From Prosthecobacter sp. (GTDB lineage: Bacteria > Verrucomicrobiota > Verrucomicrobiia > Verrucomicrobiales > Verrucomicrobiaceae): DNA of 59,867 nt. Both the position numbers and the translations under genes were made by a program. The stretch covers positions 1 through 59,867 of the forward strand of contig JAIPJY010000044.1 of assembly GCA_021733925.1 (NCBI GenBank). Direction: 5' to 3'. Position 1 is the first letter of the stretch. The number at the start of each line of letters is the position of its first letter. Of the stretch, positions 18,102 through 33,884 are shown piece after piece. The notes below the pieces were generated by a model that saw only the letters and a list, made by a program, of their open reading frames with translations, did no database searches and was not told the origin of the DNA.

Positions 18102-18147
18102 GGCAGAGTGGTGTTAAGCACTCGCACCATGCGGCCCGTCAGAATCT

Positions 18148-18177
18148 CTTCACGTCGCGCATCTGGCGCGTTTGGCC
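18148..18177 (-). promoter_or_regulatory. Repeated late-operon element, copy at tail genes
   Basis: Read on the - strand it contains CCAGATGCGCGACGTGAAG preceded by AAACGCG. Near-identical copies lie at 26702-26729 and 31552-31581. The core GCGC-N5-GCGC is dyad-symmetric. It sits 46 bases upstream of the tail-tube gene. I infer an activator-binding late-promoter element. No consensus -10 box is obvious downstream. Confidence 0.55.
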
Positions 18178-18180
18178 GCG

Positions 18181-18897
18181 TTAAAAGCTCTGGCTCACCA
18201 CATCGCTGGCCATCTTGTCCGCCGCATGGGCCGCCGCACGCAGCATGCCGCTGGGCTGCGCAAAGGGCGCGGTGTAAAGCACCGCCTCCGCGTTGCCCGG
18301 CCCGGGGTAGCTTTCATCGGTGGTGTACCAGATCTCACCGCTGCCGCTCAGGGTCACGTTGCCGCCGCCGCTGGTGATGACAGGCGGCTGGCATTTGTCA
18401 TACGGCCTGGCATGGCTCGTCACCTTGAGCCGCACACGGTATTCGATGCGCTTCTCCATCACGGCCTCAGGCACCGGCGTGATGAGGCTCTTGTCTGCGA
18501 TCAGCTGGCCGAAGGGCGCAAAGTTCATCTGCGGGATCATCTGCGCAATCAGGTAGGCCAGAGACTCCGCAGTGAAGCCCGTGCCATCCGCACCTTCATT
18601 GACTAGGATGTTCTCGATCACCCGCAGCTCAATCATGATATCTCCCTGCACGCCATACATCGCCGGGTTCACATTCGCCAGCATCGGCATGCCTACGATC
18701 ACTGCCGTGCCCCGCTTACCGTTGCGCGCCTCCAGGCCTGCCAGCGTGTTGTTGATCTTCGTCTGGATCTGCGCGGCAGCGCCCGCATTGCGCGGCCTCA
18801 CAGCGGTGATGCTCACCATGTTGATGACGGCGAGGGACAGCAGGCATTGCTCAATGTCGGACTGAAGGCGTTCAAGCGGGGAGGATAAAGCAGGCAT
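18181..18897 (-). CDS. Head-tail connector-region protein with CHB_HEX_C-like domain
   Basis: 238 residues. The N-terminal part (about 1-165) is helical, then beta, with LERLQSDIEQCLL, GTAVIVGMPMLANVNP and IMIELRVIENILVNEG; it looks like a tail-terminator/completion protein. The last 65 residues carry the pattern of the chitobiase/hexosaminidase C-terminal module: VTLSGSGEIWYTTDESYPG, then a YTAPF strand, then LRAAAHAADKMASDVV. That module is a carbohydrate-associated Ig-like fold. It may decorate the tail junction. The domain call is from motif recognition; the connector role is from position. Confidence 0.65.
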   Translation of the reverse strand: MPALSSPLERLQSDIEQCLLSLAVINMVSITAVRPRNAGAAAQIQTKINNTLAGLEARNGKRGTAVIVGMPMLANVNPAMYGVQGDIMIELRVIENILVNEGADGTGFTAESLAYLIAQMIPQMNFAPFGQLIADKSLITPVPEAVMEKRIEYRVRLKVTSHARPYDKCQPPVITSGGGNVTLSGSGEIWYTTDESYPGPGNAEAVLYTAPFAQPSGMLRAAAHAADKMASDVVSQSF

Positions 18898-18915
18898 GGT
18901 CGTGATGGGTTGGGT

Positions 18916-19578
18916 TCAGGAAAGAAAGCTCTTCAGCCAGTCGCGCACGCCCTCTTCAGCGGCGCTCTGCAGCAGCTCATCCGAAGGCAGCAGTGTGCGG
19001 TCCTGCTGCTGATGCACGGATTTGACGAGCCAGTAATAAATCGGCGGGCGCTGCGCAGCCTGCTGCGGCACACGCGTTTCTTTCGCGGCTTTGCTTTCGA
19101 TGCCGTAGCCGCTCGCCCTGCGGTCAGAGACACGGCTTTGATCCGCCTTCACCAGCGCCAGCCTGCCGCCTTTAAAGAAGGCCAGGCGCAGATCATTGAA
19201 GGCCCCGGCGCGCTTGCCATAGGCCTCGGCCGTCGCGGCGATCGTCAGGTACTTCGCATTCACCGGCGTGATCGTGATGTCGCTGAACGCACGCGTGATG
19301 CCCGGAGAGGTGATGCCGACCACCGCCCCCTCGGCATCGCTGCGGCTCGTCACGCTTTCAGCCGCCCGCTCCAGATGCCCCGTGGGTGCGGCCCCCAGGC
19401 TGTCAGCCGTGGCATGCCTGGACTGTGCCAGAGAGGTCAGATAATCCCGCGTCAGGTTCTCAGCTCGTGTCGCGATGTCCTGGTGGATCTCCACCGGGTT
19501 GAGCAGCTCCGCCTCCAGCTGCGAGAGCATGCGCTGCGCATCTCCGCCGATGCTGATGTCCACGGCGAGCAGTCTCAT
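18916..19578 (-). CDS. Head/tail completion protein (Mu gpG-like position)
   Basis: About 220 residues from the ATG that overlaps the upstream stop (ATGA). The N-terminus MRLLAVDISIGGDAQRML and the helical LLNPVEIHQDIATRAENLT resemble virion-morphogenesis proteins such as Mu gpG. The middle has HLERAAESVT and ITITPVNAKYLTIAATAEAYG, with the YLTIAATAEAYGKRAGAF strand typical of that class. It directly follows the F-like gene, as G follows F in Mu. Confidence 0.65.
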   Translation of the reverse strand: MRLLAVDISIGGDAQRMLSQLEAELLNPVEIHQDIATRAENLTRDYLTSLAQSRHATADSLGAAPTGHLERAAESVTSRSDAEGAVVGITSPGITRAFSDITITPVNAKYLTIAATAEAYGKRAGAFNDLRLAFFKGGRLALVKADQSRVSDRRASGYGIESKAAKETRVPQQAAQRPPIYYWLVKSVHQQQDRTLLPSDELLQSAAEEGVRDWLKSFLS

Positions 19579-21245
19579 GCCGCCGCCCTCCTTGCCCTTC
19601 GAAGCTCGGAGAGCGAAGAATGGGTTTCCAGCGCCGCTACAAGGGCCTTGCAACGCGTGCGCAGTGAGGTAGCATTCTTTACATCGTGGAACGTTTCGGA
19701 CGTTTCAGGGGGGGACTCTCTCGCGGGAGGTGCATCCACCGCCACGATCCTTCGATTGCCAATGTGCATCGTGATGGGCACCAAAGATTTGGCCCGCACT
19801 TCCTCAACCAATGTGTGCCGTTTGCCGCCGCGCCTCCACGTGTACTCAATCGTGGGCAGACCATTGATGGAATTTTTGCTGAGCTTGATGTGAGTGGACG
19901 GGTCCGAGTGCAGCTGATGCAGCCGCATGATGACGGCGCGTGTCACAGGGTATTGGCCGCGCTGCTTCTCTTTGGTCTTGCTGCCATGCTGTTTGTGAAT
20001 GTGGCGGATGGATGAATCATCCAGCGCATGGGTGTAACCAGCCACATCCAGCCCCGTGGCTGCACGGATTCTTTGAGCCTCGGCACTGTCCACTTTTTTG
20101 TACTGGATCGGATGGCCGATCTTGCCACGCATGCCGCCCTTGCGCGTATGCACCTTGTCATAGGCTTTGCCCGCCTGCTGCTTGCCCATGCGGCGCGTGA
20201 TCCAGCCCAGCAGCGCACCCACATGCGTGCCGCTGTTCATGATGACGCCATGCAGCCACAGCCGGTTGCGTGCGGCATTGCGCGCCCGGTAAGCCTTGTC
20301 CGCCGCCGCAAGCTCTTGATCGAGCTGCCGTTTGAGCCTCACAGATCCATCTTCCTGCCGTGCCAGGTCGCGCTTCATCGCCTCGATCAAAGCCGGGTCA
20401 AGGCCCGCCGCGCTGGCCTTGCTCCGCACCGCTGGCACCGCAGCCGGCTCTTTTCCCGCCTGCGTATCCGGCTCGCTTTTCTGATCCGTGATGACGCCCA
20501 AAATCAGGCATTCATCCCGCGCCACTTCACGCACACCATACTTGGAACCAAAGGCAAAGGGCGCAAACGGATTGCCCAGCGTGTCCTTGTAGCCATCCGC
20601 GCCATCTCCGAGATTCTGCCACACGTCGGAAGTCTTGGGCGCGATCATGCGCGTGCCCTGGTCAAACAGCTCACCACCCGCAGCCACAAACCGCGCCTGC
20701 CAGTCATCACCAGGCACCGGCTCCAAAGCTCCGCCTTTGCGGCGTTTGAATCCACGCGGCGTGCGCACACGGCCAATGCGCACCAGCTCCCACGCAGGCC
20801 ATTGGTACAGGCGGCGCTCTTCCATGCCTTTCGCGGCAAACGCTTGATTGGCCGCGATGCGGTAGTTCGTCGTGATCGTCAGCGTCATGCGCTTGTCACT
20901 GGCCAGATCCCGCAGCGTGCCTTTGCGCGCCGGTGGCACCGTGCCTGCCTTGTCCTGGGGAAAGCCGCCCGCCTCCGCATCGTAGCCCAGGGCGCGATAC
21001 ATGTCCGTGAGCTTCAGCTTGGCCGTGGCCAGGTTGTCCCTGCCCTCCAGCATGCCCGTCAGCCCATCATGCAGCGCTTGCAGCACACGCAGTTGTGTCA
21101 TGCGTGCGGAGAACAGCGCCTGCCTTCGGATGCTCGCATCCAGCTCACGCAGCTGCTCCGTGTCCAGCTCCGTGGGCACCAGCCGCTTTTGCGCCAGCTC
21201 CCGGAGCGCGGCAAAAAATCGCAGTGGCTGAAGGATAAAGTTCAT
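19575..21245 (-). CDS. Head morphogenesis (Mu F-like) protein fused to a PBECR-type nuclease domain
   Basis: About 556 residues. Residues about 110-260 look like a phage minor-head F-like domain, with ITTNYRIAANQAFAAKG, an RTPRGFKRR loop and GNPFAPFAFGSKYGV before an ARDECLILG end. A charged helical linker follows. Residues about 395-500 contain HALDDSSIRHIHKQHG, an EKQRGQYPVT strand and THIKLSKNSINGLPTIEY, then KRHTLVEEVRAK. This matches my recollection of the phage Barnase-EndoU-ColicinE5/D-RelE-like (PBECR) nuclease domains often carried by head-morphogenesis proteins. The His cluster HIHKQH is the probable active-site region. It may be an RNase delivered with the DNA or a toxin against rivals (inference). 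The ATG at 21245 is used; a TTG lies nine bases earlier. Confidence 0.7.
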   Translation of the reverse strand: MNFILQPLRFFAALRELAQKRLVPTELDTEQLRELDASIRRQALFSARMTQLRVLQALHDGLTGMLEGRDNLATAKLKLTDMYRALGYDAEAGGFPQDKAGTVPPARKGTLRDLASDKRMTLTITTNYRIAANQAFAAKGMEERRLYQWPAWELVRIGRVRTPRGFKRRKGGALEPVPGDDWQARFVAAGGELFDQGTRMIAPKTSDVWQNLGDGADGYKDTLGNPFAPFAFGSKYGVREVARDECLILGVITDQKSEPDTQAGKEPAAVPAVRSKASAAGLDPALIEAMKRDLARQEDGSVRLKRQLDQELAAADKAYRARNAARNRLWLHGVIMNSGTHVGALLGWITRRMGKQQAGKAYDKVHTRKGGMRGKIGHPIQYKKVDSAEAQRIRAATGLDVAGYTHALDDSSIRHIHKQHGSKTKEKQRGQYPVTRAVIMRLHQLHSDPSTHIKLSKNSINGLPTIEYTWRRGGKRHTLVEEVRAKSLVPITMHIGNRRIVAVDAPPARESPPETSETFHDVKNATSLRTRCKALVAALETHSSLSELRRARRAAA

Positions 21246-21257
21246 GGCTTGCAATCG

Positions 21258-21710
21258 CTAAGCACCGTCCTGCTGATCACAGCCAAACCGTTTGCGGCGT
21301 GCCTTGATCGTCGGGCCGGGCTGCGTGCTCTGCACGGTCGGCTCCTCGCTGTCATCGCTGATCTCCACCGGCATGCTGCAGTTCGCGATCGCGTCCAGCT
21401 CACGATCATCCTTGTCCCACTGCTTGCGCTCATCTTCCGTGAGCGCGTACTCCAGCCGGTCCTTGGCTGCACGCACCACCATGCGGCAGGCGATCTCTTT
21501 GAGCGACTCAGGAATCTTCGTGGCATCCGCATCCACGCGGTTGGTGCGGCAGGCCGCGACCTTGCGGCGGATGTGATTGCAGGCCGTGGTGATGTAGCCC
21601 GGCAGCGGATCAGCCTGCCCCTCAGCCAGCGCGGCGGTGCTGAGGGCAGACATCAGCGGTGCCAGCTTGGTGTCGTTAAGATCGTCAGAGGTGATAGATA
21701 TCCAAGACAT
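21258..21710 (-). CDS. Head-tail connector / gp36-like protein
   Basis: 150 residues. The N-terminus (SWISITSDDLND) and helices around LPGYITTACNHIRRKVAACR and LKEIACRMVVRAAKDRLEYAL resemble head-completion proteins of the Mu gp36 kind, which start with a membrane-free helical bundle. The C-terminus is acidic, then basic (ARRKRFG). It lies between capsid genes and the F-like gene. Assignment is by pattern and position. Confidence 0.6.
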   Translation of the reverse strand: MSWISITSDDLNDTKLAPLMSALSTAALAEGQADPLPGYITTACNHIRRKVAACRTNRVDADATKIPESLKEIACRMVVRAAKDRLEYALTEDERKQWDKDDRELDAIANCSMPVEISDDSEEPTVQSTQPGPTIKARRKRFGCDQQDGA

Positions 21711-21722
21711 GAGGTTGAAAGG

Positions 21723-21908
21723 TTATTCGATTTCGATATCTCCAGGTCGCTTGAAATCGACAGTCACAAACCCGTAGCCCTTGCACTCTTCCAAGTGCTC
21801 ATCACAGGCGTGGTAAGTTTGCTTTTCGGGCGTGATGTATCTTCCCGCTGCCAGCACAACTTCACCGTCGGACAAGCAGAGATCACAAAGGCAGACAGTT
21901 CGTTTCAT
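21723..21908 (-). CDS. Small cysteine-containing protein
   Basis: 61 residues with a CLCDLC pair and a HACDEH pair, a probable zinc-binding knuckle. It lies 12 bases upstream of the connector gene in the late transcript. No family recognised. Confidence 0.5.
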   Translation of the reverse strand: MKRTVCLCDLCLSDGEVVLAAGRYITPEKQTYHACDEHLEECKGYGFVTVDFKRPGDIEIE

Positions 21909-21922
21909 AAGGGAAAATAAAT

Positions 21923-22075
21923 TCAGGCTGATTTCTGACCGATCCGCCCGAGCCTGGCCCGCGTCTCACGGCCCATGCGTCCCAGGCACACGATCTGCGG
22001 AAACAGCACCGGCATGCGCCCTGCAAGCCCGATGCACAGCGCCTGCTGCAGCGCGATTCGGCGGAGGAGTTTCAT
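21923..22075 (-). CDS. Small basic protein, hypothetical
   Basis: A 50-residue frame starting MKLLRRIALQQALCIG and ending RIGQKSA. Its ATG overlaps the stop of the upstream gene (ATGA), which supports translation. It is Arg-rich with one weak hydrophobic stretch. Function unknown. Confidence 0.45.
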   Translation of the reverse strand: MKLLRRIALQQALCIGLAGRMPVLFPQIVCLGRMGRETRARLGRIGQKSA

Positions 22076-22305
22076 TGTTTGGCAAACCAGGCATCCAGTT
22101 CACGGCGTGTCTTGCACGCCAGCAGTTCAGTCACGGTCGCACGAACATCCATGCGCAATTCCTTGAGCCATCGAGCCAGCCTCAACAGGGCGCTCTTTTG
22201 CGGTGGCCTGACTGCCGTACGGCGTCCACCTGGCCCAATGACATAACTGCCGCGCCAGTCGAGCACTGCGTTGCGGAGTTTGCCGAGTTTGAGATTCCTG
22301 CTCAT
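22072..22305 (-). CDS. Small hypothetical late protein
   Basis: 77 residues from the chosen ATG (MSRNLKLGKLRNAVLDW); the longer frame upstream runs into the space after the capsid gene. Basic, helical C-terminus LLACKTRRELDAWFAK. It lies between the major capsid and connector genes and is linked to the next frame by an ATGA overlap. Family not recognised. Confidence 0.5.
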   Translation of the reverse strand: MSRNLKLGKLRNAVLDWRGSYVIGPGGRRTAVRPPQKSALLRLARWLKELRMDVRATVTELLACKTRRELDAWFAKQ

Positions 22306-22408
22306 GAGTTGATCCAAAAGGAAGGGCTTGGAAGGTGGCAGCCTCCAAGCCCGGTTGTGTTGCGCGCCCTGCCAGGTTGCCGCGCTTGTGGCCTTGAGGG
22401 CGATTCGA

Positions 22409-23326
22409 TTAACCGATGGTGAAGAGCTTTCCAGCCTCGGTATTGGTGGCCTTGACGTCTGCACTCCAGTCAAGCTTGACGACTTCGCCGCGTCCATCCT
22501 GGCGCGGATACACGCCCGGAACCATCCAGCGATTGCGCGGGCGGAACGTCTTCATGAACGAAGGATCACGCCGCGTCGGGTTGGGATTGCGGGCAAACAC
22601 CAGCAGTTTGGCTTTGAGGAGGAAGTCCAGGGCTGTCGTCTTGCCGCGTGCGGTCGTGTCCGCAGCGAGCCAGGAGATCTTGTGCTTCACGTTGCCCATC
22701 AGGAGCTTCATGATGTTGTCGAAGGTCGGGGCGATTTCATCCTTGCCAGGGAAATAGCCTTTTGTCTTCGCATTGGCAAAGAAGGCGCGCACGGCATCCG
22801 CAGACCACACCATGCCGACCTCGATCATGTCACTGCCACCTGCGGCGAGAATGACGGAAGCGACGGCCTCATTCAATTCTTTGACGGGATCATTGCTGTC
22901 ACTGCTCCAGGTGCCACCGGAGGCCGCACCAGCGGACGAAACCGCCGTGTCGATGACCAGCTTCTCATGAGCCAGACCGCCAAGGAAAGCAGCGTCATCC
23001 GCCGCTTCTTTGAGGACATCCATGCCCTCGGCTTCTTCGATCTCGATGTTGTCGAGCGGCGTGTCCAGGGCGTTGGGTTTGCACTCGAAGCTTTGGGAGC
23101 TGCGGTCAAAGATCAGCTGTGTGGCCTGACCACCCAGACCACGCAGGGTGTCGGGGATCTTGAAGCGGCTTTCTTTGTCATAACTGGTGTATTTGCCCGT
23201 GTGCCTGGAGGTGTTGACCGTTGGGGCGATGAAGTCGGCAACCTGCGACGTGGCAGATTGCGCGGCTCCCTGTGCGTATTCTTTGATCAGCGGCTGACCG
23301 CTGAGGGTGGCGAGTGAGGTGCTCAT
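22409..23326 (-). CDS. Major capsid protein
   Basis: 305 residues. The position after the protease/scaffold and a small decoration-like protein is that of the Mu gpT/major-head gene. The N-terminus is short and helical (IKEYAQGAAQSATSQVADF). It is followed by an extended strand with YDKESRFKIPDTLRG, a helix-rich P-domain (EGMDVLKEAADDAAFLGG) and an A-domain with DMIEVGMVWSADAVRAFF. The C-terminal strand VVKLDWSADVKATNTEAGK closes the fold. The overall plan fits an HK97-type shell protein. It is probably not proteolytically trimmed at a long delta domain, as none is seen. Confidence 0.8.
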   Translation of the reverse strand: MSTSLATLSGQPLIKEYAQGAAQSATSQVADFIAPTVNTSRHTGKYTSYDKESRFKIPDTLRGLGGQATQLIFDRSSQSFECKPNALDTPLDNIEIEEAEGMDVLKEAADDAAFLGGLAHEKLVIDTAVSSAGAASGGTWSSDSNDPVKELNEAVASVILAAGGSDMIEVGMVWSADAVRAFFANAKTKGYFPGKDEIAPTFDNIMKLLMGNVKHKISWLAADTTARGKTTALDFLLKAKLLVFARNPNPTRRDPSFMKTFRPRNRWMVPGVYPRQDGRGEVVKLDWSADVKATNTEAGKLFTIG

Positions 23327-23391
23327 AATGGCTTGTGTGGAGTTCGGGCATCAGCCCGTGATGAATGAATGAGTGAGGAGTTGAGGGTTGT

Positions 23392-23970
23392 TTATGCCGT
23401 GGCCTTCCAGCCTTGGGCGACCATGAAGGCGCGCATGTCCCGCACGTTGGCGAGGATGGCGTCGGCCTGTGCCTGGCTGAATCCGTAGGGCGTGGAGTTG
23501 GTGGCTGCAGTCGCTGCCGGTGTGGCGGCGCTGAACGTGCTGCCCACGTTGATCATGCGCGGATGCGGGCGGATGCGGACGAGCTGCTCGTCCACGAAGT
23601 CTTCAAGCGCGACCCCGGGAGAGTAGTAAGCCCCCTCCGTGGTGCCGAGTGCTTCCACCTTGCCTGCATTGACGCCGGAAGATGCGGCAGGGTCACAAAG
23701 CACCAGGGCGTTGCCTGCAGAGCCGGTGCCGTTGGCACGGATGCGGACTTCTTTCTCCCCGGCGATGGCGAGCACGTCGCAGTTGGAATCTTCCACGGCT
23801 TCGCGGACCAGGATGAACGGGCAGATGTCCGTCACAGCGGCTGGCACGACGACTTCGGGAATCGAACCGCCATCGGCGATTTTAACAAGACGGCCTTCAA
23901 GGCCGGTGAGATCGGCACCGGCATTGATCTTGCGCGGCCCGCCTGGGTGGGTGTCTGTCTGGGTGGTCAT
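23392..23970 (-). CDS. Capsid decoration-like protein
   Basis: 192 residues between the protease/scaffold gene and the major capsid gene. Residues 15-135 show a beta-barrel pattern: LEGRLVKIADGGSIPEVVVP, then CDVLAIAGEKEVRIR and ALVLCDPAA. This is like capsid cement proteins (DUF2190 type). The C-terminal helix SQAQADAILANVRDMRAF could be a trimerisation or capsid-contact segment. A capsid role is supported by location; the family is inferred. Confidence 0.6.
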   Translation of the reverse strand: MTTQTDTHPGGPRKINAGADLTGLEGRLVKIADGGSIPEVVVPAAVTDICPFILVREAVEDSNCDVLAIAGEKEVRIRANGTGSAGNALVLCDPAASSGVNAGKVEALGTTEGAYYSPGVALEDFVDEQLVRIRPHPRMINVGSTFSAATPAATAATNSTPYGFSQAQADAILANVRDMRAFMVAQGWKATA

Positions 23971-24005
23971 ATCGAATGGATATTGAAGGGTGATGAGTTG
24001 ATGGG

Positions 24006-24497
24006 TTACTTGACGAACTGCTGCGCGTACTCGCCCTCAGCCTGCGCGAAGCATTCTTGATGACGGCGGTTGGTGTTGGACTGCTTCAGCTCGTTGGTGC
24101 GGTTGCCGATCCATGCCGCCTTCTTGGCCTCGGCTTCCTTGGCGGTATCATCGCCCTGGTTGAGCTGCTCTCCCGTCTTCGGCAGCGGTGCGCCCTGGCG
24201 GTTGTGCAGCGGCTGGCGCGGCTCAGTGGTCGCAGGCTTGCTCTTGGCGAGGATGGCGAGCGCAGCGGGGCGCGTGGCCTTGTTGGTCAGAGACGGCGTG
24301 AGCAGCGTGCGCTGATCAGCGTCCGTGATGCCGTGTTCATCCAGATCACGGCTGGCGAGCATGTCTTGCAGCTCGGTGATGCGATTGGTGGTCGCGGTGT
24401 CGGTTGCGCCTTTGGAGCTGCACGCGGCGGAGATCTGGTCATCAGTCGCCTCCGGTGGCAAGCCCAAGGCCTTTAGCAGCATGGCTTTGTAGTCCAT
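24006..24497 (-). CDS. Nested in-frame scaffold protein (Mu gpZ-like), possible
   Basis: An internal ATG (MDYKAMLLKALG) begins exactly where the protease domain ends and would yield 163 residues of scaffold. Mu makes gpZ from such an internal start in I. No strong ribosome-binding site is seen before it, so separate translation is uncertain. Confidence 0.4.
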   Translation of the reverse strand: MDYKAMLLKALGLPPEATDDQISAACSSKGATDTATTNRITELQDMLASRDLDEHGITDADQRTLLTPSLTNKATRPAALAILAKSKPATTEPRQPLHNRQGAPLPKTGEQLNQGDDTAKEAEAKKAAWIGNRTNELKQSNTNRRHQECFAQAEGEYAQQFVK

Positions 24498-25019
24498 TGT
24501 TTTGGGTGTGTTGGTGTTTGGGTTTGCCGACTCCGAGCGGCGGTTCGTGAGGGGTTTCTGCCCCCTCAAATTCGGATCATTCGTCAGGGCGATCACTCCC
24601 AGCTGCGTGACGCGCATGCGCCCGTTGCCAAGATCCACCAGGCCATCACGCGGGAAGCAGGGGCTGGTGAACTGATAGACTTTGCCATTGACCAGCGGCA
24701 GGCCATGCGTGGTGAGATCAATGCGCACCCACAGGCCATCATCACGGATCTGCGTCTCTTTACCCCAGCCGCTGGCTTCAGTCGTATTTTGCACGTCCAT
24801 GGATTTGTGATCCACATCCACCCGGCTGGCAGGCGTGCCGATGGGGTAGGTTCTCGCCATGTTTTCCACCGCCGCCTGGTCAATGACCTGGACGATGGTT
24901 TCCTTGCCATCCGCAGAGACCCAGGGATGTTCGCCAAACGGGCACACATGCGCCCAGCAGGAACGGCTGGCGTCAAAGGGAGTGCTGGCTTGATTGAGCA
25001 GGCAGAGGTCAGTTTTCAA
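24006..25019 (-). CDS. Prohead protease with C-terminal scaffold (Mu gpI-like)
   Basis: 337 residues. The N-terminal half is a Mu-like prohead protease: IGTPASRVDVDHKSMDVQ has the probable catalytic His, KVYQFTSPCF the probable nucleophile Ser, and LGVIALTNDPNLRG the closing strand. A low-complexity linker (SANPNTNTPKT) leads to an acidic, coiled C-terminal half (MDYKAMLLKALGLPPEA onward) that fits the scaffold. The start is TTG at 25019; an in-frame stop lies two codons before it. An AAGGA lies about ten bases upstream. As in Mu, the scaffold portion may also be made separately (see 24006-24497). Confidence 0.8.
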   Translation of the reverse strand: MKTDLCLLNQASTPFDASRSCWAHVCPFGEHPWVSADGKETIVQVIDQAAVENMARTYPIGTPASRVDVDHKSMDVQNTTEASGWGKETQIRDDGLWVRIDLTTHGLPLVNGKVYQFTSPCFPRDGLVDLGNGRMRVTQLGVIALTNDPNLRGQKPLTNRRSESANPNTNTPKTMDYKAMLLKALGLPPEATDDQISAACSSKGATDTATTNRITELQDMLASRDLDEHGITDADQRTLLTPSLTNKATRPAALAILAKSKPATTEPRQPLHNRQGAPLPKTGEQLNQGDDTAKEAEAKKAAWIGNRTNELKQSNTNRRHQECFAQAEGEYAQQFVK

Positions 25020-25050
25020 TGTTCAATGTTCCTTGTTGAATGTTCAATGT

Positions 25051-26670
25051 TCACACCGCCACGGCTTCGTTGGCGGCGGCAGCGCCGAGGATTTTCTGCC
25101 AGCTTGTCACGGTGGCGTCAGAGGCCCCGACTTCGGCGGCGAGCTTGGGCAGGTCTTCCATGAGCAGCTTCACACCGGCCTGCAGGTCCTCTTCACTCTG
25201 CGCATCCGTGAGCAGCTCCTGCAGGCGCTCTGCCACGGGCTTGAAGTCGGCCTGCATGCCTGAGAGCATTTCATCCAGGGACGCGGCCAGCATGTCCTCG
25301 GTGATGTCTTGCGGCTCACGCTCAGCATCACCGCCATCCGCAGTCGTCGCACGGTTCGGCAGCGGCGGCGGAATGCCCTTGCCCGGAGTCTGCACAGGAG
25401 ACCGGGTCACCTTGTAGGACGTGCGTTCCTCGACCTGCGAAGGGTCCACATCAAAGCCCGCATCCTTGAGCCCGGCCACATCCTTGATGATCTCACCGGT
25501 GTCCACTTCCTCATTGGCCAGTATTTCAAAGTAAGCCAGGGCAGGCTGTCCCGGGAACTGCGCCGCCAGGATCTTCTTGTCAAACTGCGCCTGCAAAGCT
25601 GCCGTGATGCGCCGCGCCAGGGCACGCGCCACACGCATGAAGGTTTCCGAATGCGCACCGCCCGCCAGAGTCCCGCTGCCGCTCTCGGCCAGCATCGTGA
25701 GGGCACCGCTCGTGATCGCCATCACAATCTCTTTCTCCAGCGCCTCCTGGTAGCTGCGGAAAGGTGCCACGCCACGCGCCCCGGCATCCACCGTCTTGAT
25801 GTCGCTGCCATACGGCAAAGCGCCGCGTGAATTGCTGATGACTTCCTCTGCCAGGTCCTGATAAGCCGTCTCCTGCCCCGCTGGTACATTCTGCGGCATC
25901 ACGGCAAAGATGGAAGGCACGCCAAAGCTCTCAATGAAGCCGTCCTCATCCTTGCGGCCCATCTGGAGCCGCACAAACGCAATCAAGGCGATCTCATTGA
26001 TCGGATCATCAATCTCACGCACGATGAACCGGGACATGTCCACCGGCTCCCCCTTGACGCTGCCACTGCGTGCCCCGCTGTTGTAGGCCCAGGCACCATT
26101 GAGGCCGTCGCGACACCAGTACCACTGCTGCACTGGGCGCAGCTCCACAATGCCGGGCTTGCCGTCCAGCCATGCGGGCACATTGCCCTCGATCATCTCC
26201 AGATGCGCAAATCCCCGAAACTCAGCCAGGCCCAGGAACTCAATGGCCTCGGTCAGATTGCTGATGGCATCATACGCGCTGCGCAGTGCCGTGGCCTGCG
26301 CTTCAGCCTGGGCCTGGGTGTAGCCCTTGGGCAGGCGCTTCTCTTCCACCGTCTTGATCTCCCAGTCCATCTCAGAGACGGCGGAGAGCAGCGACCGCTT
26401 GCCACCACGCAGCGTGGCATTGCGCTTTTCAATGAAGCGGTAGAGCCATTGCAGGTCGGCATACGCCCCGCGCTCTCCTTCCTCCAGATAGTTCACCGCC
26501 CGGGACATCGTCAGGCCGCGCAGCGGGTTGAACAGATCCCGCCATTTGTTGGCATTGCTGATCTGGATCGCCATCGTCAAAGACCGCACCTGCACCGTGA
26601 CGGCATTGCGCAGCGCAGCGGCAGGGCGGGAGACGAGGCGGTTCCAGAGTTGTGGCAGCGGGTTCTTCAA
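25051..26670 (-). CDS. Portal protein (Mu gp29-like, DUF935)
   Basis: 539 residues. The dodecameric head vertex protein through which DNA enters and leaves. It carries the DUF935 signature: WRDLFNPLRGLTMSRAVNYL, EEGERGAYADLQWLYRFIEK, RGGKRSLLSAVSEMDWEIK, and later TSGALTMLAESGSGTLAGG and a GGAHSETF turn. The C-terminus is acidic. The start is TTG at 26670; an ATG 32 codons in (MAIQISNANKW) is an alternative. It is the first gene behind the repeated element at 26702-26729. Confidence 0.9.
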   Translation of the reverse strand: MKNPLPQLWNRLVSRPAAALRNAVTVQVRSLTMAIQISNANKWRDLFNPLRGLTMSRAVNYLEEGERGAYADLQWLYRFIEKRNATLRGGKRSLLSAVSEMDWEIKTVEEKRLPKGYTQAQAEAQATALRSAYDAISNLTEAIEFLGLAEFRGFAHLEMIEGNVPAWLDGKPGIVELRPVQQWYWCRDGLNGAWAYNSGARSGSVKGEPVDMSRFIVREIDDPINEIALIAFVRLQMGRKDEDGFIESFGVPSIFAVMPQNVPAGQETAYQDLAEEVISNSRGALPYGSDIKTVDAGARGVAPFRSYQEALEKEIVMAITSGALTMLAESGSGTLAGGAHSETFMRVARALARRITAALQAQFDKKILAAQFPGQPALAYFEILANEEVDTGEIIKDVAGLKDAGFDVDPSQVEERTSYKVTRSPVQTPGKGIPPPLPNRATTADGGDAEREPQDITEDMLAASLDEMLSGMQADFKPVAERLQELLTDAQSEEDLQAGVKLLMEDLPKLAAEVGASDATVTSWQKILGAAAANEAVAV

Positions 26671-26969
26671 AGCGGGGTCATTTCACCACAGCCCCGCCCC
26701 CCTTCACGTCGCGCATCTGGCACGTTTGGTGGCTGTTTTCAGCCCTCGCCAGATCCGGGCACCCCACCCCCAAAAACTGCCCCCGGCCCGTTTTCCGGCT
26801 CGTGAGTTCGGCTGTCAGGCCCTTTGCAACGCGTTTGCAACGCCTCAGTGGCCTTTGGAGCGGGCCAAGTGCTGCCGTGACACGACCCCACCCCCTTCAA
26901 ACGCGTTAAAACCCGGTTTCTGCGCATTCCGGCTTTCCGCGCCCTCCGAAGCCTTGGGCGAAGGATGGG
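26671..26969. other. Intergenic region between terminase and portal
   Basis: 299 bases with no convincing gene; short frames here have poor composition. It contains the second copy of the late-operon element at 26702-26729. Confidence 0.55.
26702..26729 (-). promoter_or_regulatory. Repeated late-operon element, copy at portal
   Basis: Same core (CCAGATGCGCGACGTGAAG on the - strand) as at 18148-18177 and 31552-31581, with one change in the upstream arm (CGTGCC in place of CGCGCC). It lies 32 bases upstream of the portal start, in front of the head operon. Confidence 0.55.
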
Positions 26970-28562
26970 TCACCCCAAAACCTCCCGAACTCGGCGGGCG
27001 GCTGAGGCGATAGCTGACCGGGTGCGGCCAAAGGGCTTGGGGGGGGTGCATGGGCTCAGCTCATGCTTAGCCGCCTCACTGCTCAAGCCGCCTGCCCACG
27101 CGATGTCACAGTGAGAGGCAGGGTTAAAGTTGTTTGGGCCTTCACTATAGATCCAGCGACCGCCTTGGTAGAGCTTTCGCAGGGCAAAGAAATCCTGCGC
27201 AATGTCGCGGTGCTCGTTTTCCTTGTTGGACACCAGGTCATGCGTCTTGGGCCACTGCTTCTCCGCCACAGCCATCTGGTTCATGAGGGCAAAGCCCATG
27301 TCATGCTTGCTGCGGCTGAAGTTGATGGGGTGGAACTGCCCCGGAAAATTCTGCGCGAGGTTCCAGCAGATTTGACGGCCCAGACCCGTTTCATCACCAC
27401 AAGCTGTGAGACTGGCCGTACGCTTCATGAACCAGCTCGCCGCCGTTTCAAGGAAATGCCAGTCATCGGTGCGGCATGTCAGGAGAGAGCGCAGCTTGAA
27501 GTTGGCACCGTTTTTCTCATCACAATAGAGGCAGGCAAGATCCCCCTGACCGGATGCCGCCACGTCAAAGCCCAGCGTATGCCGTGCCACACGTGCCCGA
27601 TGCTCGGGATAGACGCTGTCGAGGAATGACTCGATGCGGCCCTCCCGTGCTGACTTGTCAAACTTGCTGAAGGGTTGAAACAAAGTCGGGATTTGTTCTG
27701 CCTCAAAATGCATGCGCTCGATGTCATAGAGCTGCGTGCATTGCTCAATGCTGGACCAGGGCACTGCCGACGAGCTGCTGCCGCGTGGGTTGCAGTTGTA
27801 CGCCTGCTCATAGATTTCAGGCAGTCGTGCACGCGTCTTGCAGTCGGCGATGAAGGCTTCCCGCGTCCACTGCTTGTCTGTGCGCCGCTTGATCATGTCG
27901 AGGTAGCCATTTTCAATGGCATCCTCCATCGTGACTCGGTAGTAAGACCAACCGCCAAGGCCTTCCCGCGCCTCTTGGGCAAACTCATAGAACAACGTGT
28001 CTGTGCCGTTGTGAGCACTCCACACGCCGATGTCATAGCCCATTGTAATACGGCCTTGAGCTGTCTCCCACAGGGCATCCTGCTGCGGATGAAATGCAAA
28101 CTCATCCAACCCAACATCTCCACCATGCACACGCATGGCCTGGGGATTGCTGCTAAAAGCCATGATTCGGCTGCCGTTGTCGAATTTGATGTAGCAGAAT
28201 TTGACCTCATCTGTGAAGCCGGTTTCTTTCCCGCGTGAATCCATGCGCGGTACGTTCATGGTGTCCTCACCATGGCTGAGGATGCTTTTCGTGAGATCGT
28301 AAATCTCACAGAACTTCATGCAGGTCTGCACATACTCGGCGGCGCTCGGCTGGTCGCGTGTGGCAAAAAGATAGTCGCGGTCGGCATGATGCAGGCGCTT
28401 GCGCACATTCTTGAAGGCATCGGCATACGTCCAACCGATGCGCACGCTCTTCTCTGCCAGCCGCATGCGTGAGTCATCTTTGATCCATGCGAGTTGATAG
28501 GTCAGGAACTTCGCATCTGCGCGTTGGCTGTCGATGTTGATCGCTGGCAGGATGGCAGCCAT
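26970..28562 (-). CDS. Terminase large subunit (Mu gp28-like)
   Basis: About 530 residues. The DNA-packaging ATPase and nuclease. The ATPase centre shows the deviant Walker A AEKSVRIGWTYA (about 36-47), typical of Mu gp28 relatives, and Walker B VGLDEFAFH (about 150-158) with catalytic Glu. The nuclease domain has LGFDVAASGQGDLACLY with a metal-binding Asp, and TACGDETGLGRQICW further on. The ATG at 28562 was chosen because it lies five bases from the small-subunit stop; the longer frame overlaps that gene. Confidence 0.93.
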   Translation of the reverse strand: MAAILPAINIDSQRADAKFLTYQLAWIKDDSRMRLAEKSVRIGWTYADAFKNVRKRLHHADRDYLFATRDQPSAAEYVQTCMKFCEIYDLTKSILSHGEDTMNVPRMDSRGKETGFTDEVKFCYIKFDNGSRIMAFSSNPQAMRVHGGDVGLDEFAFHPQQDALWETAQGRITMGYDIGVWSAHNGTDTLFYEFAQEAREGLGGWSYYRVTMEDAIENGYLDMIKRRTDKQWTREAFIADCKTRARLPEIYEQAYNCNPRGSSSSAVPWSSIEQCTQLYDIERMHFEAEQIPTLFQPFSKFDKSAREGRIESFLDSVYPEHRARVARHTLGFDVAASGQGDLACLYCDEKNGANFKLRSLLTCRTDDWHFLETAASWFMKRTASLTACGDETGLGRQICWNLAQNFPGQFHPINFSRSKHDMGFALMNQMAVAEKQWPKTHDLVSNKENEHRDIAQDFFALRKLYQGGRWIYSEGPNNFNPASHCDIAWAGGLSSEAAKHELSPCTPPKPFGRTRSAIASAARRVREVLG

Positions 28563-28566
28563 AAAG

Positions 28567-29157
28567 TTAGAATTTAATCCCCATCGCCTCGTCAACCTCT
28601 TTGAGGATGCGGCTGCGCAGCTCGTCATTCATCGGCGCATCTTTGATGAGATTCTTGGCACGGTCATTGGCCTGCCGTGTGGCTTCAGCCTGATCCTCCA
28701 GAGCCTTCACCTTCCTCTCCGCCTGCTCCAGCTTTTGCTGTGCCTGGTCAAGACTGCGCTCCGCCTGTTTGATCTTCACCTCAGTCTGCTGAGCCGTGAT
28801 GAGCTTGATCTCCTGATCCCGCAGTTTGAGAAGTTCCTTGGCGCTGATCTCAGATGAGGACGCAAGTTCAAAGGCTTTCTGCGCGACCACCTTGCGCTGG
28901 GCCGCGTCCATCTCTTCCGGCAGCAGGCCCTGGGTTTCGATGGCAAACCGCTTGGCGCGCTCAATCGTCCAGTTGGACCTCTCCGCATGGTAGAACCGAT
29001 GCACCGCGCTCTTGGATGTCTCCACCTTCCACGTTTGCACCAGGGCAAGCCCGCCATCCAGGCCGCAGCGCTGATCCACCAGCGCGATGAGCAGCTCATC
29101 CCGCTGCTCGGCGGTGAGCTTGCTCCAGAGGCTGGCATTGTCGCGTGCGGTGCTCAT
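28567..29157 (-). CDS. Terminase small subunit (Mu gp27-like, DUF3486)
   Basis: 196 residues. The N-terminal domain (LTAEQRDELLIALVDQRCG, TWKVETSKSAVHRFYH) is the DNA-recognition part of gp27-like small terminases. The C-terminal half is a long charged coiled coil (QQTEVKIKQAERSLDQAQQK) suited to oligomerisation. It directly precedes the large subunit. Confidence 0.8.
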   Translation of the reverse strand: MSTARDNASLWSKLTAEQRDELLIALVDQRCGLDGGLALVQTWKVETSKSAVHRFYHAERSNWTIERAKRFAIETQGLLPEEMDAAQRKVVAQKAFELASSSEISAKELLKLRDQEIKLITAQQTEVKIKQAERSLDQAQQKLEQAERKVKALEDQAEATRQANDRAKNLIKDAPMNDELRSRILKEVDEAMGIKF

Positions 29158-29161
29158 GGCG

Positions 29162-29437
29162 TTATTTCTGCCGCAGCATCACGCGGCCTGATTCCGTGAT
29201 GAACCAGCGCGCCTCATCATCGCCCATCTGACCAGGCGGCAGCTTGTCGATCGCATCCAGCGGGCTGTCGTCTTTGCCGCTGAGTTCATCCAGCGCGGCA
29301 TTGAACTCCATGGTTCGGGGTTTGGGCTTGAGGCGGTCGCAGACATGATCCAGCAGAGTGCTTTGAGGCAGGGCATTTCCCCCGCAGTTCTCCAGCACTT
29401 CAAGAATGGCAAGGCAGATGGCTTTGTGTCGGTTCAT
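29162..29437 (-). CDS. Small hypothetical protein, winged-helix-like
   Basis: 91 residues, helical N-terminus (AICLAILEVLENCGGNALPQ), then LDHVCDRLKPKPRTMEF and a short hairpin ARWFITESGRVMLRQ. This resembles a small winged-helix domain. It lies between the spanin-like and terminase genes, where Mu has small genes of uncertain function. Not assigned. Confidence 0.6.
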   Translation of the reverse strand: MNRHKAICLAILEVLENCGGNALPQSTLLDHVCDRLKPKPRTMEFNAALDELSGKDDSPLDAIDKLPPGQMGDDEARWFITESGRVMLRQK

Positions 29438-29443
29438 GGCGGA

Positions 29444-29890
29444 TTATTGGCTTAAAATATCAAGGCGGGTTTCGGCTGAGGCGATGCGCTCACGCATGTC
29501 TGTCAGGGCCTCGTTCATGGAGTCTTTGACGGTGGTCACCTCACGCATGACGACACCGACTTCCTTGCGCAGAGCCTCCTTGATGGAGGCCTCACGTTCG
29601 GCACCACTCAGGAGCAAGGTGGTGTTGTTGGTGTTGACCGTCTGGGTAAGTGAGGTCACAGCCGTGCTCAGCTTGTCCATGTCGGACTGGTCGGCATGCG
29701 TCACATGCTTTTTCACGCTCAACGGTTGCGCGATGCTGAACGGCTCTTCCTTCGTGCCGCTCCTCATCATCTTCTTGTGGGCCTGCGTCTCCACCCACTT
29801 GGCATAAATCGAATACAGCGCCCAGGCGGAGACCAGAAATTTCCAGAAGTCCATGGCTTCAGGCGTGGGGAGGGCGGCGAGCGGGATCAT
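29444..29890 (-). CDS. Membrane-anchored coiled-coil protein, possible i-spanin
   Basis: 148 residues. One transmembrane segment (about 12-30, MDFWKFLVSAWALYSIYAKW), then a long predicted coiled coil to the C-terminus (SIKEALRKEVGVVMREVTTV). The topology matches inner-membrane spanin subunits and some gp23/gp24-type lysis proteins. It sits in the lysis cassette next to the holin-like and cell-wall genes. The spanin role is inferred. Confidence 0.55.
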   Translation of the reverse strand: MIPLAALPTPEAMDFWKFLVSAWALYSIYAKWVETQAHKKMMRSGTKEEPFSIAQPLSVKKHVTHADQSDMDKLSTAVTSLTQTVNTNNTTLLLSGAEREASIKEALRKEVGVVMREVTTVKDSMNEALTDMRERIASAETRLDILSQ

Positions 29891-29915
29891 GATGAGAGCG
29901 CGGAAAGGATGAGAT

Positions 29916-30494
29916 TCAGAGCCAGCGCCACTTGGCGTCTATCTTGAGCGGGGCTTGTTTGTTAATGAGGAGCAGACAAGCGGGATTGAGATCAATGCGG
30001 CCTTGGGCGCTGATGCGATCGCCTACTTGCGCGATGAACTGCCGGCCGTTTGCCACTACTTCCACCTTGCGCAGCCAGGCTGCATGCCTGCTGCCCCAGC
30101 GGGACAAGAGGAAGCGGTCGTGAATCGCCACATAGGGCGTGTGCTCCTGTGCCGTGATGACGCCGGATTCACCCACGCCGTTGTCGCCCACCGCGAAACA
30201 TTTCAGGTCACTCTTGCCGGTGGCCTTGCATTTCTTGAAGGAGCGCAGATCCGCAGGATCAGCAAAGCTGGAGGCCTCGCAGACGATCCACTCGCCGCTG
30301 GCTTCGAATGCCAGGCCATTCAATGCACCCTGGGACTTTGGTCCCCACCGCCCATCCACCAGCACGCCCAATCCTTGCTGGATGCGTTTCTTGATGGCCG
30401 CGCTGGCCTTGAGCAGCGCAGCCTGGTCAGTTGGACTCCACGTACCATCAGCGGGCACCTTGAGCAGCGTTTGGATTTCAGTGATCGTGGTCAT
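29916..30494 (-). CDS. Putative phage lysis protein with DPBB-like (RlpA-type) domain
   Basis: 192 residues. The N-terminal 60 residues (ITEIQTLLKVPADGTWSPTD, then GLGVLVDGRWGPKSQGALN) look like a degenerate peptidoglycan-binding repeat. The C-terminal part has CFAVGDNGVGESGV, IHDRFLLSRWG, and RQFIAQVGDRISAQGRIDLN followed by PACL. This is the strand order and conserved Asp pattern of RlpA/3D-type double-psi barrels, several of which are lytic transglycosylases. No lysozyme or amidase is otherwise present in the prophage, so this is the best endolysin candidate. No clear export signal is visible; it would need the holin. Confidence 0.6.
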   Translation of the reverse strand: MTTITEIQTLLKVPADGTWSPTDQAALLKASAAIKKRIQQGLGVLVDGRWGPKSQGALNGLAFEASGEWIVCEASSFADPADLRSFKKCKATGKSDLKCFAVGDNGVGESGVITAQEHTPYVAIHDRFLLSRWGSRHAAWLRKVEVVANGRQFIAQVGDRISAQGRIDLNPACLLLINKQAPLKIDAKWRWL

Positions 30495-30504
30495 GGCGGC
30501 GCTG

Positions 30505-31005
30505 TCAATTGCGGACGTTGACGGTGCTCAAGGCGAAGGCCACACGGGTGCCATAGAGCGGGATGCGATCAGCGAGCTGCATGCAGCCCGGGCCTTCTTC
30601 GTACTGTAGTTCCGGCTTCAGCCGGTTCTGGCGGCGCTGCGTGTGAGACGCGGTGACAGTCACCGCTGGCTGCACGTTGATTGGATTCTTCGGCAACGTG
30701 AAGCGCCCACCCGTGAGCTGCTGGTACTTGGCCTGGGCGGCTTCGATGACGTCGGTAAACGCAGTGATCTGCGATCCGCGCAGAATCTCTTTCACAGGAT
30801 CTGCATGGATGCCTTCCGCTTTGAGCGCCGCCACTTTGGCGGAGGCCTGAAGAATGATCTGCTCCAGCCCGACCTTCTGAGTGGTCTCAATGACCGCTTT
30901 GCCAAGCTGATCAGCAGTGGCCATGAGAGCGCGGCCAAAAGGGGAAGCGATCAGCGCCGAGCTTGTGGCACATGAACTCAGCGCCAGCACACACCCGCAC
31001 AGCAT
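30505..31005 (-). CDS. Nested in-frame lipoprotein, possible
   Basis: An internal ATG (residue 129 of the holin-like frame) is preceded by GAAGG at a spacing of five bases. It opens MLCGCVLALSSC, a very short lipoprotein signal. The product would be a 166-residue lipoprotein precursor with a charged helical body. This would separate lipoprotein from holin without a frameshift. Confidence 0.45.
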   Translation of the reverse strand: MLCGCVLALSSCATSSALIASPFGRALMATADQLGKAVIETTQKVGLEQIILQASAKVAALKAEGIHADPVKEILRGSQITAFTDVIEAAQAKYQQLTGGRFTLPKNPINVQPAVTVTASHTQRRQNRLKPELQYEEGPGCMQLADRIPLYGTRVAFALSTVNVRN

Positions 31006-31389
31006 GAGCACCTTCACCACCGTGACAGATCCAGCCAGGGCCAGCTTCTGATGCAGCCCCGCCTTGCTCAGCCCGGCGTTGATCACGGCCACGCCGAGCA
31101 GCTCCGGGTTGTTGGCATCCACCGCAAAATACGCACTCAGGGCCGTGATGCCCTGGGACACCAGGGAGCCCAGCGCCACGCGCAGCATCTGGCTGCCGCT
31201 GATGTCCTCCACCAGCTTGTCATCCAGGTGCAGCCATTTGGCGATCACGGACCAGACGACGGGGATGCCGACCACGGCGACTCCGACCACGATGCTTGTC
31301 GTGCTGTCTCCGGTGATGTGATGCGCAGCGAACCAACCGCCACACAGCGCAAGCAGATGGCGGACAATGAGTTGAATGATGGATGACAT
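30505..31389 (-). CDS. Holin-like membrane protein with in-frame lipoprotein extension
   Basis: 294 residues from the ATG at 31389; the longer upstream frame is discarded. Residues 1-115 have two to three hydrophobic segments (IIQLIVRHLLALCGGWFAAH and SIVVGVAVVGIPVVWSVIA) like Pam3 gp28-type holins. Residues 122-145 form a second signal-like stretch, VKVLMLCGCVLALSSCATS, with a lipobox whose Cys is residue 140. The remainder is helical and soluble. It is either a fusion or two products from nested starts (see 30505-31005). It is the first gene of the late lysis operon, 163 bases behind the element at 31552-31581. Confidence 0.65.
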   Translation of the reverse strand: MSSIIQLIVRHLLALCGGWFAAHHITGDSTTSIVVGVAVVGIPVVWSVIAKWLHLDDKLVEDISGSQMLRVALGSLVSQGITALSAYFAVDANNPELLGVAVINAGLSKAGLHQKLALAGSVTVVKVLMLCGCVLALSSCATSSALIASPFGRALMATADQLGKAVIETTQKVGLEQIILQASAKVAALKAEGIHADPVKEILRGSQITAFTDVIEAAQAKYQQLTGGRFTLPKNPINVQPAVTVTASHTQRRQNRLKPELQYEEGPGCMQLADRIPLYGTRVAFALSTVNVRN

Positions 31390-31551
31390 GGCGTGGGATG
31401 GATCTGGGTTGAAGTTTCCCGCCGCCATCACCTCCCCGGCCTGGTCGCTGCACCCCGGTCCTTCTTTCCCAAGGCAGACCGGCATGCAGCGTTTATAGAC
31501 CATGTGAAGCACTGGCTAAGCGCACCGCCACCCTGACACCTGCCAACCCCT

Positions 31552-31581
31552 CTTCACGTCGCGCATCTGGCGCGTCTGGCC
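31552..31581 (-). promoter_or_regulatory. Repeated late-operon element, copy at lysis genes
   Basis: Third copy of the CCAGATGCGCGACGTGAAG core on the - strand; the match to 18148-18177 is 29 of 30 bases. It lies upstream of the holin-like gene and downstream of a terminator, exactly where Mu places its lysis promoter. Confidence 0.6.
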
Positions 31582-31600
31582 ATCCAGCCAGGGCACAAAA

Positions 31601-31624
31601 AAGCCGCGCATCTCTGCGCGGCTT
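31601..31624 (-). terminator. Rho-independent terminator behind the repressor transcript
   Basis: Perfect 10-bp stem (AAGCCGCGCA, loop TCTC, TGCGCGGCTT) followed on the - strand by a run of Ts. It lies 24 bases past the last gene of the leftward repressor transcript and insulates the late lysis operon. Confidence 0.85.
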
Positions 31625-31647
31625 GGGGAAATAGCAATGAAGAGGTC

Positions 31648-32699: not shown

Positions 32700-33368
32700 T
32701 CACAAGAGTTCACGCCGGAAAGACGAATGAACCGGATAGATCCAATGGAATTCCTTCAGCGAATATTCAACAGACGGATAAATCTGGTTGTACGGGATGA
32801 GCTTGATGCGTTCACTCTCCAACCGGGTAAATCTGCGTAGGACCACGCCGTCATTCTTTAGTTTTGCGACGACCAAGCATCCATTTCGCAACTCTTCGTC
32901 AGGATCAACGATCACAACATCATTAGGTTCACACTTCGGCTCCATGCTGTCCCCCTCGACAATGAGGCCGAATGCTCGCTTTCCCCTGCACAATGTTGGA
33001 ATGCGCTCCTGCCAATGAGCCGGTAGCTCCTCGTAACTGGTGGCGGATCCAGCGTGCGCCCAAGAAACTACTGGAACTGTCCCGGCGAAAATTTCGTCAA
33101 CGGGTCCAAGTATTCGGGCGTTGCTGAATGACTCGCGTTTAATTGAGTTCATCTGACCTTCGCCGGTCTCTAACCAATTTGCGTTTATCCCCAAACGCGA
33201 AGCGAGTTCATCAATATTTTTGCGTCTGGGCTTCGACCCTGAGCGCCATCGGTAAATGGAACTAAGAGCGATCCCGGCCTCTGCAGCGAGATCAGGCAAC
33301 GCCTTTGACTTCTGCTCGCAAGCAGACTGCAAACGCGAAAATATTTCTTCGGAAACGCTAATATTCAT
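32700..33368 (-). CDS. S24-type phage repressor (CI-like)
   Basis: 222 residues. The N-terminal helix-turn-helix (about 15-65) has PDLAAEAGIALSSIYRWRSG and the closing IDELASRLGINANWLETGEG, typical of HTH_3 repressors. The C-terminal S24/LexA-like domain has FAGTVPVVSWAHAGSA (cleavage-type AG site), then LIVEGDSMEPKCEPNDVVIV with the catalytic Ser in GDSM, and CLVVAKLKNDG with the catalytic Lys. It should maintain lysogeny and respond to RecA by self-cleavage. This differs from Mu c, which lacks the S24 domain. It is divergent from the Ner-like gene across a 51-bp operator region. Confidence 0.92.
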   Translation of the reverse strand: MNISVSEEIFSRLQSACEQKSKALPDLAAEAGIALSSIYRWRSGSKPRRKNIDELASRLGINANWLETGEGQMNSIKRESFSNARILGPVDEIFAGTVPVVSWAHAGSATSYEELPAHWQERIPTLCRGKRAFGLIVEGDSMEPKCEPNDVVIVDPDEELRNGCLVVAKLKNDGVVLRRFTRLESERIKLIPYNQIYPSVEYSLKEFHWIYPVHSSFRRELL

Positions 33369-33419
33369 TTGCGCAAATTCGCGTTCTCGCTTAAAACGCG
33401 AATACCAACGCAACAAAAG
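33369..33419. promoter_or_regulatory. Divergent operator region between repressor and Ner-like genes
   Basis: Contains a perfect inverted repeat, ATTCGCGTT (33377-33385) and AACGCGAAT (33395-33403), with a 9-bp spacer. Further AAACGCGA copies, in either orientation, occur within the repressor gene at 33133-33140, 33193-33200 and 33331-33338. These are candidate repressor and Ner binding sites. Confidence 0.65.
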
Positions 33420-33883: not shown

Positions 33884-33884
33884 T

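Follow-up and report, generated by a model that had tools for sequence, protein, structure and literature searches.

The window analysed here, the whole contig C81 (59,867 nucleotides) of a 7.3-Mb, 93% complete Prosthecobacter sp. assembly, carries a prophage that, judged from its predicted proteins, is Mu-like: it encodes relatives of MuA and MuB, a gp28-type terminase and weaker matches to Gam and GemA, the latter two below their Pfam cut-offs. Its late genes, which include the terminase, portal, maturation protease and major head genes and a tail-fibre match, are minus-strand open reading frames (ORFs) running from about 31.5 to 9.5 kb, and its early operon on the plus strand (Gam-, MuA-, MuB- and GemA-like proteins) is divergent from a minus-strand repressor gene (Table 1). 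Within the late region, the 19-mer CCAGATGCGCGACGTGAAG occurs exactly at 18148-18166, 26702-26720 and 31552-31570, each time on the minus strand and as part of a full element of 28 bases, CCARACGYGCCAGATGCGCGACGTGAAGRG; all three copies sit between minus-strand genes, in the gaps 18102-18180, 26671-26969 and 31513-31647. The three near-identical elements reported in the first-pass annotation are thus borne out. That annotation also placed them at the heads of the tail, head and lysis genes, which holds for the portal copy; copy 1, however, lies inside the tail block, after 18181-18897, rather than at its head, and copy 3 does occupy the gap before 30505-31512, but the lysis label of that gene derives from a holin match of 19.8 bits, below the Pfam cut-off of 27 bits.

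Allowing up to three mismatches, the window holds four matches to the 19-mer against 0.02 expected, a number reached in none of 100 shuffles; the fourth (22685, three mismatches) falls within the major head gene. The host assembly holds 11 such places (three exact and eight with three mismatches, 22685 among them), the 19-mer read backward as a control gives five, and with at most two mismatches no place in the assembly beyond the three window copies was found. Furthermore, a 24-mer with up to three mismatches recovered the three window copies only from the 7.3-Mb assembly and none from 46 other genomes drawn from the same genus, in agreement with the earlier statement that no similar site was found elsewhere. 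Exact scans of the IMG/VR viral contigs with the 19-mer, where own or very near records were possibly excluded, and of the GTDB contigs with a 22-mer, from which window copy 2 itself differs and where near records were possibly excluded, gave no match.

Related prophages were collected through portal and terminase searches, which yielded a second prophage of the same genome (contig C97, hereafter c97) and those of G001, G028, G035, G047 and G067 (g01, g28, g35, g47 and g67; the window phage is win). A portal query of the IMG/VR viral contigs found no relative, and the IMG/VR phage L250 (record G386, hereafter g386) was reached through a MuA search. Six of these seven relatives bear a repeated element of their own in late-region gaps on the late strand, with a sequence that differs from phage to phage; the pattern search proposed earlier for the window and related prophages returned three window copies and, in the relatives, different elements. 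In the comparison of 28-nt gap stretches, win, c97, g01 and g35 had top scores of 26-28 matches, shuffles reaching at most 20-21, and one copy pair in g28 scored 26 against 21. Counting the window, all seven element-bearing phages have a copy ahead of the 30505-31512 homologue, and five have one ahead of the portal gene; in g28 and g35 the second copy lies before another head-region gene. A tail-region copy is present in six, not always ahead of the same gene. The gap repeats of g67 scored like true elements in the 28-nt comparison and were rejected as late elements, being a host-wide hairpin word found at 14 genome places with up to one mismatch, of which the prophage accounts for three; the window element and this word are the two for which host-wide spread was assessed.

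Table 1. Features of the window prophage and repeated elements of related phages
Feature	Position in window	Strand	Sequence and copies	Evidence
MuA-like transposase	38300..40318	+		phrog_310, 1.9e-11
MuB-like transposition protein	40308..41309	+		phrog_296, 2.9e-29
S24-type (CI/LexA-like) repressor	32700..33491	-		Pfam Peptidase_S24, 3.1e-18; phrog_4
Terminase large subunit, Mu gp28-like	26970..28628	-		phrog_2; Mup28/gp28-annotated phage records among matches
Portal	25051..26670	-		phrog_113, 2e-18
Major head protein	22409..23326	-		phrog_1005
Candidate late activator, HTH_17/BldC/excisionase-like, 131 aa, C-terminal HPDLF	34774..35169	+		family profile
Element copy 1	18146..18177	-		exact 19-mer; 79-bp gap before tail-region gene 17169-18101
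Element copy 2	26700..26729	-		exact 19-mer; before portal gene 25051-26670
Element copy 3	31550..31581	-		exact 19-mer; before putative lysis/terminase operon headed by 30505-31512
-10-like hexamer	18126..18131	-	CATGGT	+20..+25 from GTG of the element; consensus match
-10-like hexamer	26680..26685	-	TGAAAT	positional signal over seven phages
-10-like hexamer, poor match	31530..31535	-	CAGGGT	positional signal over seven phages
Terminator-like hairpin	31601..31624	-		10 pairs, T tail; ends about 20 bp before copy 3, repressor side beyond
c97 element		late strand	GCTGACATCTGGTCGTCCTGGTCAGGTGC, three copies	
g01 element		late strand	ATGCACGACGGGCACTTCGGGTCAGGTGC, three copies	
g35 element		late strand	CATCCACGTCATGCACGTCATGCAGCGT, two copies	
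g28 element		late strand	ATGCGGCTTGAGCGGTTTTAGTTAGGCG, three copies, up to four mismatches	
g47 element		late strand	GTGCGGTAAAGGCGGGTAAGGCGGGGTG, three copies	
g386 element		late strand	TCATATGCGCCATGTGCGCCGTGAG, three copies	

Averaged over phages, the elements show a 9-bp period. The mean autocorrelation at offset 9 was 0.435 over five phages (P=0.0002 over offsets 4-15, composition shuffles), two phages added afterwards gave 0.69 (P=5e-5, composition shuffles), and all seven together gave 0.51; in the three window copies the value was 0.58, the best of offsets 4-15. At loci outside the genus, the best offset among 5-13 was 9 at L105 and L174, 8 at L044, 10 at L041, 13 at L103 and 12 at L090 and L172. 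The GCGC-N5-GCGC dyad described in the first-pass annotation is present in the letters; however, because GCGC is self-complementary, the dyad and a 9-bp direct repeat describe one and the same pattern, of which the repeat reading fits better and is significant over the seven phages. The short dyads of win, g386 and g35 are likewise 9-bp direct repeats of self-complementary words, whereas g47, with non-palindromic words, keeps the 9-bp spacing without a dyad. By eye, neither g47 nor c97 shows a dyad of that spacing, for which reason the dyad reading was not retained.

A second positional signal lies downstream. With the copies anchored on the GTG at the element end in six phages and on GGC in g28, a -10-like hexamer of the CATGAT/CTGAAT type recurs at +20/+21 from the anchor (P=0.02 over the first 17 copies, 0.01 over all 20, and 0.0013 over the 17 copies other than the three of g28); a one-base shift of win and g386, picked after looking, sharpens this signal. 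We read the arrangement as gTGnnn-17-nnnnAT, so that the element would occupy roughly -60 to -33 relative to a degenerate late promoter with a weak -35 (gTGnnn) and a weak -10 of about CATGAT. With three sites and a hexamer at a roughly fixed distance, several late operons share a site that precedes a weak -35, in a promoter that is itself putative; a sigma-70 pattern scan gave no more hits than chance would (2 found versus 2.4 expected). Terminator-like sites in the region number seven, against 7.3 in shuffles; that at 31601..31624 has the longest stem, and similar hairpins were seen by eye in g01, g35 and g47. A nut or RNA-hairpin reading of the elements was dropped, as no consistent stem was apparent by eye and the hairpin lies upstream of copy 3. 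Start codons at +31 to +35, which would mean leaderless mRNAs, seemed suggestive by eye, but the counts there are not distinctive and the reading is not claimed: in windows five positions wide, an NTG occurs in 12 of 17 copies from +31 and in all 17 from +23.

An all-against-all comparison of the seven element-bearing phages covered ORFs of at least 55 aa. Only two early families, MuA and the family of the window protein 34774-35169 (hereafter f1), were found by profile in at least six of the seven, Gam-like proteins coming next with five, and f1 was the sole early putative regulator so found in six of seven. Pairwise element similarity followed f1 identity (Spearman 0.46, Mantel p 0.035) and tracked neither MuA (0.10) nor the terminase (-0.13). 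No f1 was detected in g67. A strict low-complexity filter had hidden the g47 element; f1 was present in g47, which was therefore re-examined, whereupon its element appeared, and 173 locus-strand scans were rerun with a looser filter. In one relative set the element scans covered the 64 of 80 loci of 9 kb or more, and the f1-like loci L251, L257, L258, L261 and L264 stood outside the scans. A search for f1 across 386 genomes of the order gave 12 with a match, five of the same genus (holding six element-bearing prophages) and seven of other genera, including G208 (the L044 locus), G265 and G346; because those six prophages were in the profile, only the absence of further same-genus matches is informative, the number of same-genus genomes among the 386 not being stated. 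The f1 relative at L170 was matched at 5e-10 with f1 alone, and in G007 the terminase match lies on a 6.8-kb fragment.

Some f1 relatives match HTH_17 (PF12728) and, weakly, excisionase families in Pfam and PHROGs. Against the HTH_17 cut-off of 27 bits, g01 scored 29.1 bits (1.2e-6) and L044 36.3; g35 and c97 fell below it, and g28 gave no match. In a comparison with BldC-DNA chains, an AF2 model of the window protein (eight sequences) aligned with 6ama_H over 61 columns (TMt 0.72, E 0.07, rank 8). We infer that a transposable phage needs no excisionase. For the Mor family (PF08765), no window ORF scanned against Pfam matched, and nothing in the 93% complete genome exceeded the cut-off, the one match at E 0.23 (14.1 versus 24.9 bits) lying on contig C27, outside the window.

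The f1 proteins also end in related motifs: QLDLF in c97 and g28, the full motif in these two members, HPDLF in win, CGDLF in g01, IGDLF in g35, QPDFF in L250 and EFDF in g47. Passages of PMC9690074 and PMC4549789 describe QL(S/D)LF, located C-terminally, as the clamp motif of bacteria. Five phages have 99 called genes with products of 80-220 aa; the five that carry DLF, DFF or EFDF within their 20 C-terminal residues were all f1, a pattern picked after the motif had been seen; a 76-aa c97 protein (52916-53146), not of f1 and outside the length range, also carries DFF there. It is conceivable, as a speculative extension, that the candidate activator is anchored on the replication clamp of the host and so couples late transcription to replicative transposition, in the manner of T4 with unrelated parts; since transposases use the clamp motif too, the DLF-type motif could instead serve transposition. 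As a separate observation, HTH_17-like proteins at L170, L242, L044, L272, L273, L274 and L275 (the last two near-identical) carry clamp-like motifs at the N- or C-terminus (QLHLPF, QMMLF, QMTLMI, QLSLSL, QLTLVW and QLTLPL), and no such motif was seen by eye in those at L251, L257, L258, L261, L276, L277 and L279.

Taken together, we consider it moderately likely that the three elements are binding sites of a phage-encoded late activator, for which 34774-35169 is the leading candidate. Each element would comprise about three head-to-tail 9-bp words, onto which the early f1 protein would load head to tail and, after repressor loss, recruit or remodel the host RNA polymerase at the three late operons together. 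If protein and site diverged together in sister phages, each phage would therefore possess a private late regulon. The hairpin at 31601..31624, which separates copy 3 from the repressor side, is counted in favour of this proposal. The late regulon under an unnamed activator that the first-pass annotation had put forward is partly supported, by the elements of six relatives at comparable positions and by the promoter-like hexamer, and modified in that the activator now has a candidate.

Several observations weigh against this interpretation. The g28 member of f1 was picked by eye and reaches E=3.4 with a profile built without it, and the Mantel p is modest with n=7. For the window protein, HTH_17 scores E=0.22 and is outranked by an unrelated family (0.14); the AF2 model of this protein is of moderate quality (pLDDT 72.6), no PDB match reaches E 0.001, the MerR-type HiNmlR ranks first among them at E 0.013, and BldC appears by sequence profile at E 0.36, behind a 'CAP REPEAT' match in which no stretch passes. 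As for the sites, offset 9 is the best in only four of seven phages, offset 14 being higher in c97, g01 and g28; by eye, the g28 hexamers (TATCAT, TTGAAT and CATTAT) are some 10 bp closer to the element; and g35 bears two copies. Further afield, L170, G265 and G346 encode an f1-like or HTH_17 protein but show no clear element of this kind. Moreover, among 35 loci with 49-62% identical terminases (L039-L050 and L149-L171, many incomplete), f1 was found in two, L170 and weakly L044, and repeated comparable gap elements only in L044 and, less clearly, L041.

Late activator sites as proposed could also be served by another phage protein, for instance an early ORF without known relatives. Many early ORFs lack a family match over cut-off, the co-occurrence of f1 is no proof of binding, and the comparison covered ORFs of at least 55 aa; nevertheless, no other early putative regulator reached six of the seven phages, and the correlation between f1 and the element points to f1, making a different protein rather unlikely.

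We regard it as improbable that the protein loads on RNA polymerase as an antiterminator of the Q/AlpA/GafZ type instead of acting as a classical activator. According to passages of PMC9371919, PMC7969949 and PMC11150451, AlpA antiterminates cell-lysis genes and GafZ a gene transfer agent cluster, and their sites do sit in the promoters of these target genes. Those sites, however, lie between -35 and -10, whereas the window element is upstream of the putative -35; copy 3 is downstream of the hairpin and so outside the repressor transcript if that terminates there; and the AF2 model matches chains of the MerR/BldC type, in a direct comparison that left out AlpA itself.

Operators through which the phage repressor silences late genes in the lysogen would suit the promoter-like positions and the S24-type repressor; they are very improbable, given that 33401-33760, where the divergent early promoter lies, is free of copies (best score 0.7 versus 44-45) and that no member of the S24 family turned up in g01 and g28, which bear elements. 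A generic host repeat, RNA element or transposase end site is scarcely credible for the window, even with short repeats common in these genomes and those in the g67 gaps host-wide, given phage-specific sequences, three copies only in the 7.3-Mb assembly, all in late gaps, and no Rfam family at gathering score in 17900-34000.

The arrangement can be set beside known systems. Several late operons under one activator are already known from Mu, where C serves the late promoters Plys, PI, PP and Pmom, and P2, with Ogr, is organized in the same way; the site of the Mu C/Mor activators is an inverted repeat. The earlier comparison with Mu C stands as logic, in that one activator would serve several late operons, and the site is likewise just upstream of a weak -35, as a passage of PMC4461284 describes for Mu. 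It fails as membership: the window genome has no Mor/C protein over cut-off, and its sites read better as 9-bp direct repeats than as dyads and differ between sister phages. BldC of Streptomyces, RdfS and lambda Xis are HTH_17/excisionase-type winged-helix proteins that form head-to-tail oligomers. The BldC family resembles f1 in the related domain of several members (Pfam, PHROGs) and in the fold of the window model, and one BldC target has 9-bp direct repeats, according to passages of PMC5859096 and PMC11963761; in contrast, BldC words are AT-rich (AATTXXXX(C)), whereas those of the window and its relatives are mostly GC-rich, and another BldC target is reported, in a published passage, with protomers one DNA turn apart. 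T4 late transcription (gp33/gp55 with the clamp gp45) offers a factor with a short C-terminal clamp-type motif, comparable to LDFL in a passage of PMC9690074; unlike T4, the window phage shows no sigma or co-activator relative, and clamp binding is suggested by the motif alone. EUO of Chlamydiae, members of the same PVC superphylum, has an excisionase-like winged helix that targets developmentally regulated genes, according to part of PMC4989314, and titles in the reference list of that paper call it a repressor of late genes in Chlamydia; unlike f1, EUO is a cellular regulator. Among the open-licence papers searched, we found neither an excisionase/BldC-type late activator of transposable phages nor phage-private 9-bp repeat sites.

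Other features of these phages were observed alongside. The window terminase is 26% identical to the Mu gp28 type of Pseudomonas phages, and the named contigs with the best terminase matches are mostly from Verrucomicrobiota. The protein of 41733-42308 is 93% identical over 191 aa to its counterpart in c97; because MuB is 36% alike and the gene next to 41733-42308 74% alike, a recent exchange between the two prophages is likely. The early protein 42744-43151 has a weak MarR-like match and QMELALP at its N-terminus. A D12-class adenine methyltransferase (43950-44849, minus strand) lies where the early region ends on the right; c97 has a relative in the corresponding place, and the g47 stretch ends with a relative of that c97 protein. 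Further right, 44802-59381 is a single ORF of 4859 aa with internal repeats. Repeats of other kinds were also seen. Two exact repeats of 20-24 nt flank the related terminase at L103 (7316 and 14683) and L104 (7217 and 14435), in Paracoccus and Roseobacter, and are possible late sites of alphaproteobacterial relatives. At L172 (2733, 5025 and 7764; also in L176), three GACAGAATCATGGGGGGTGGAATCAT-like repeats surround the terminase, with GAATCAT recurring by eye 15 bp apart. The G028 phage (L013) holds a second repeated element, ATAGGTCTGATGGGACCGATACGACCGA, in two gaps (9732 and 16047), with five mismatches between copies.

Collectively, our findings would give the transposable phages of Verrucomicrobiota a proposed late regulon that can be put to the test, together with a named candidate for its activator. 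Should the clamp motif prove real, it may represent a second way, beside that of T4, to couple late transcription with replication. Given that protein and site vary by phage and the operon positions are largely kept, these phages would form a natural series on how excisionase/BldC-type proteins choose their DNA.

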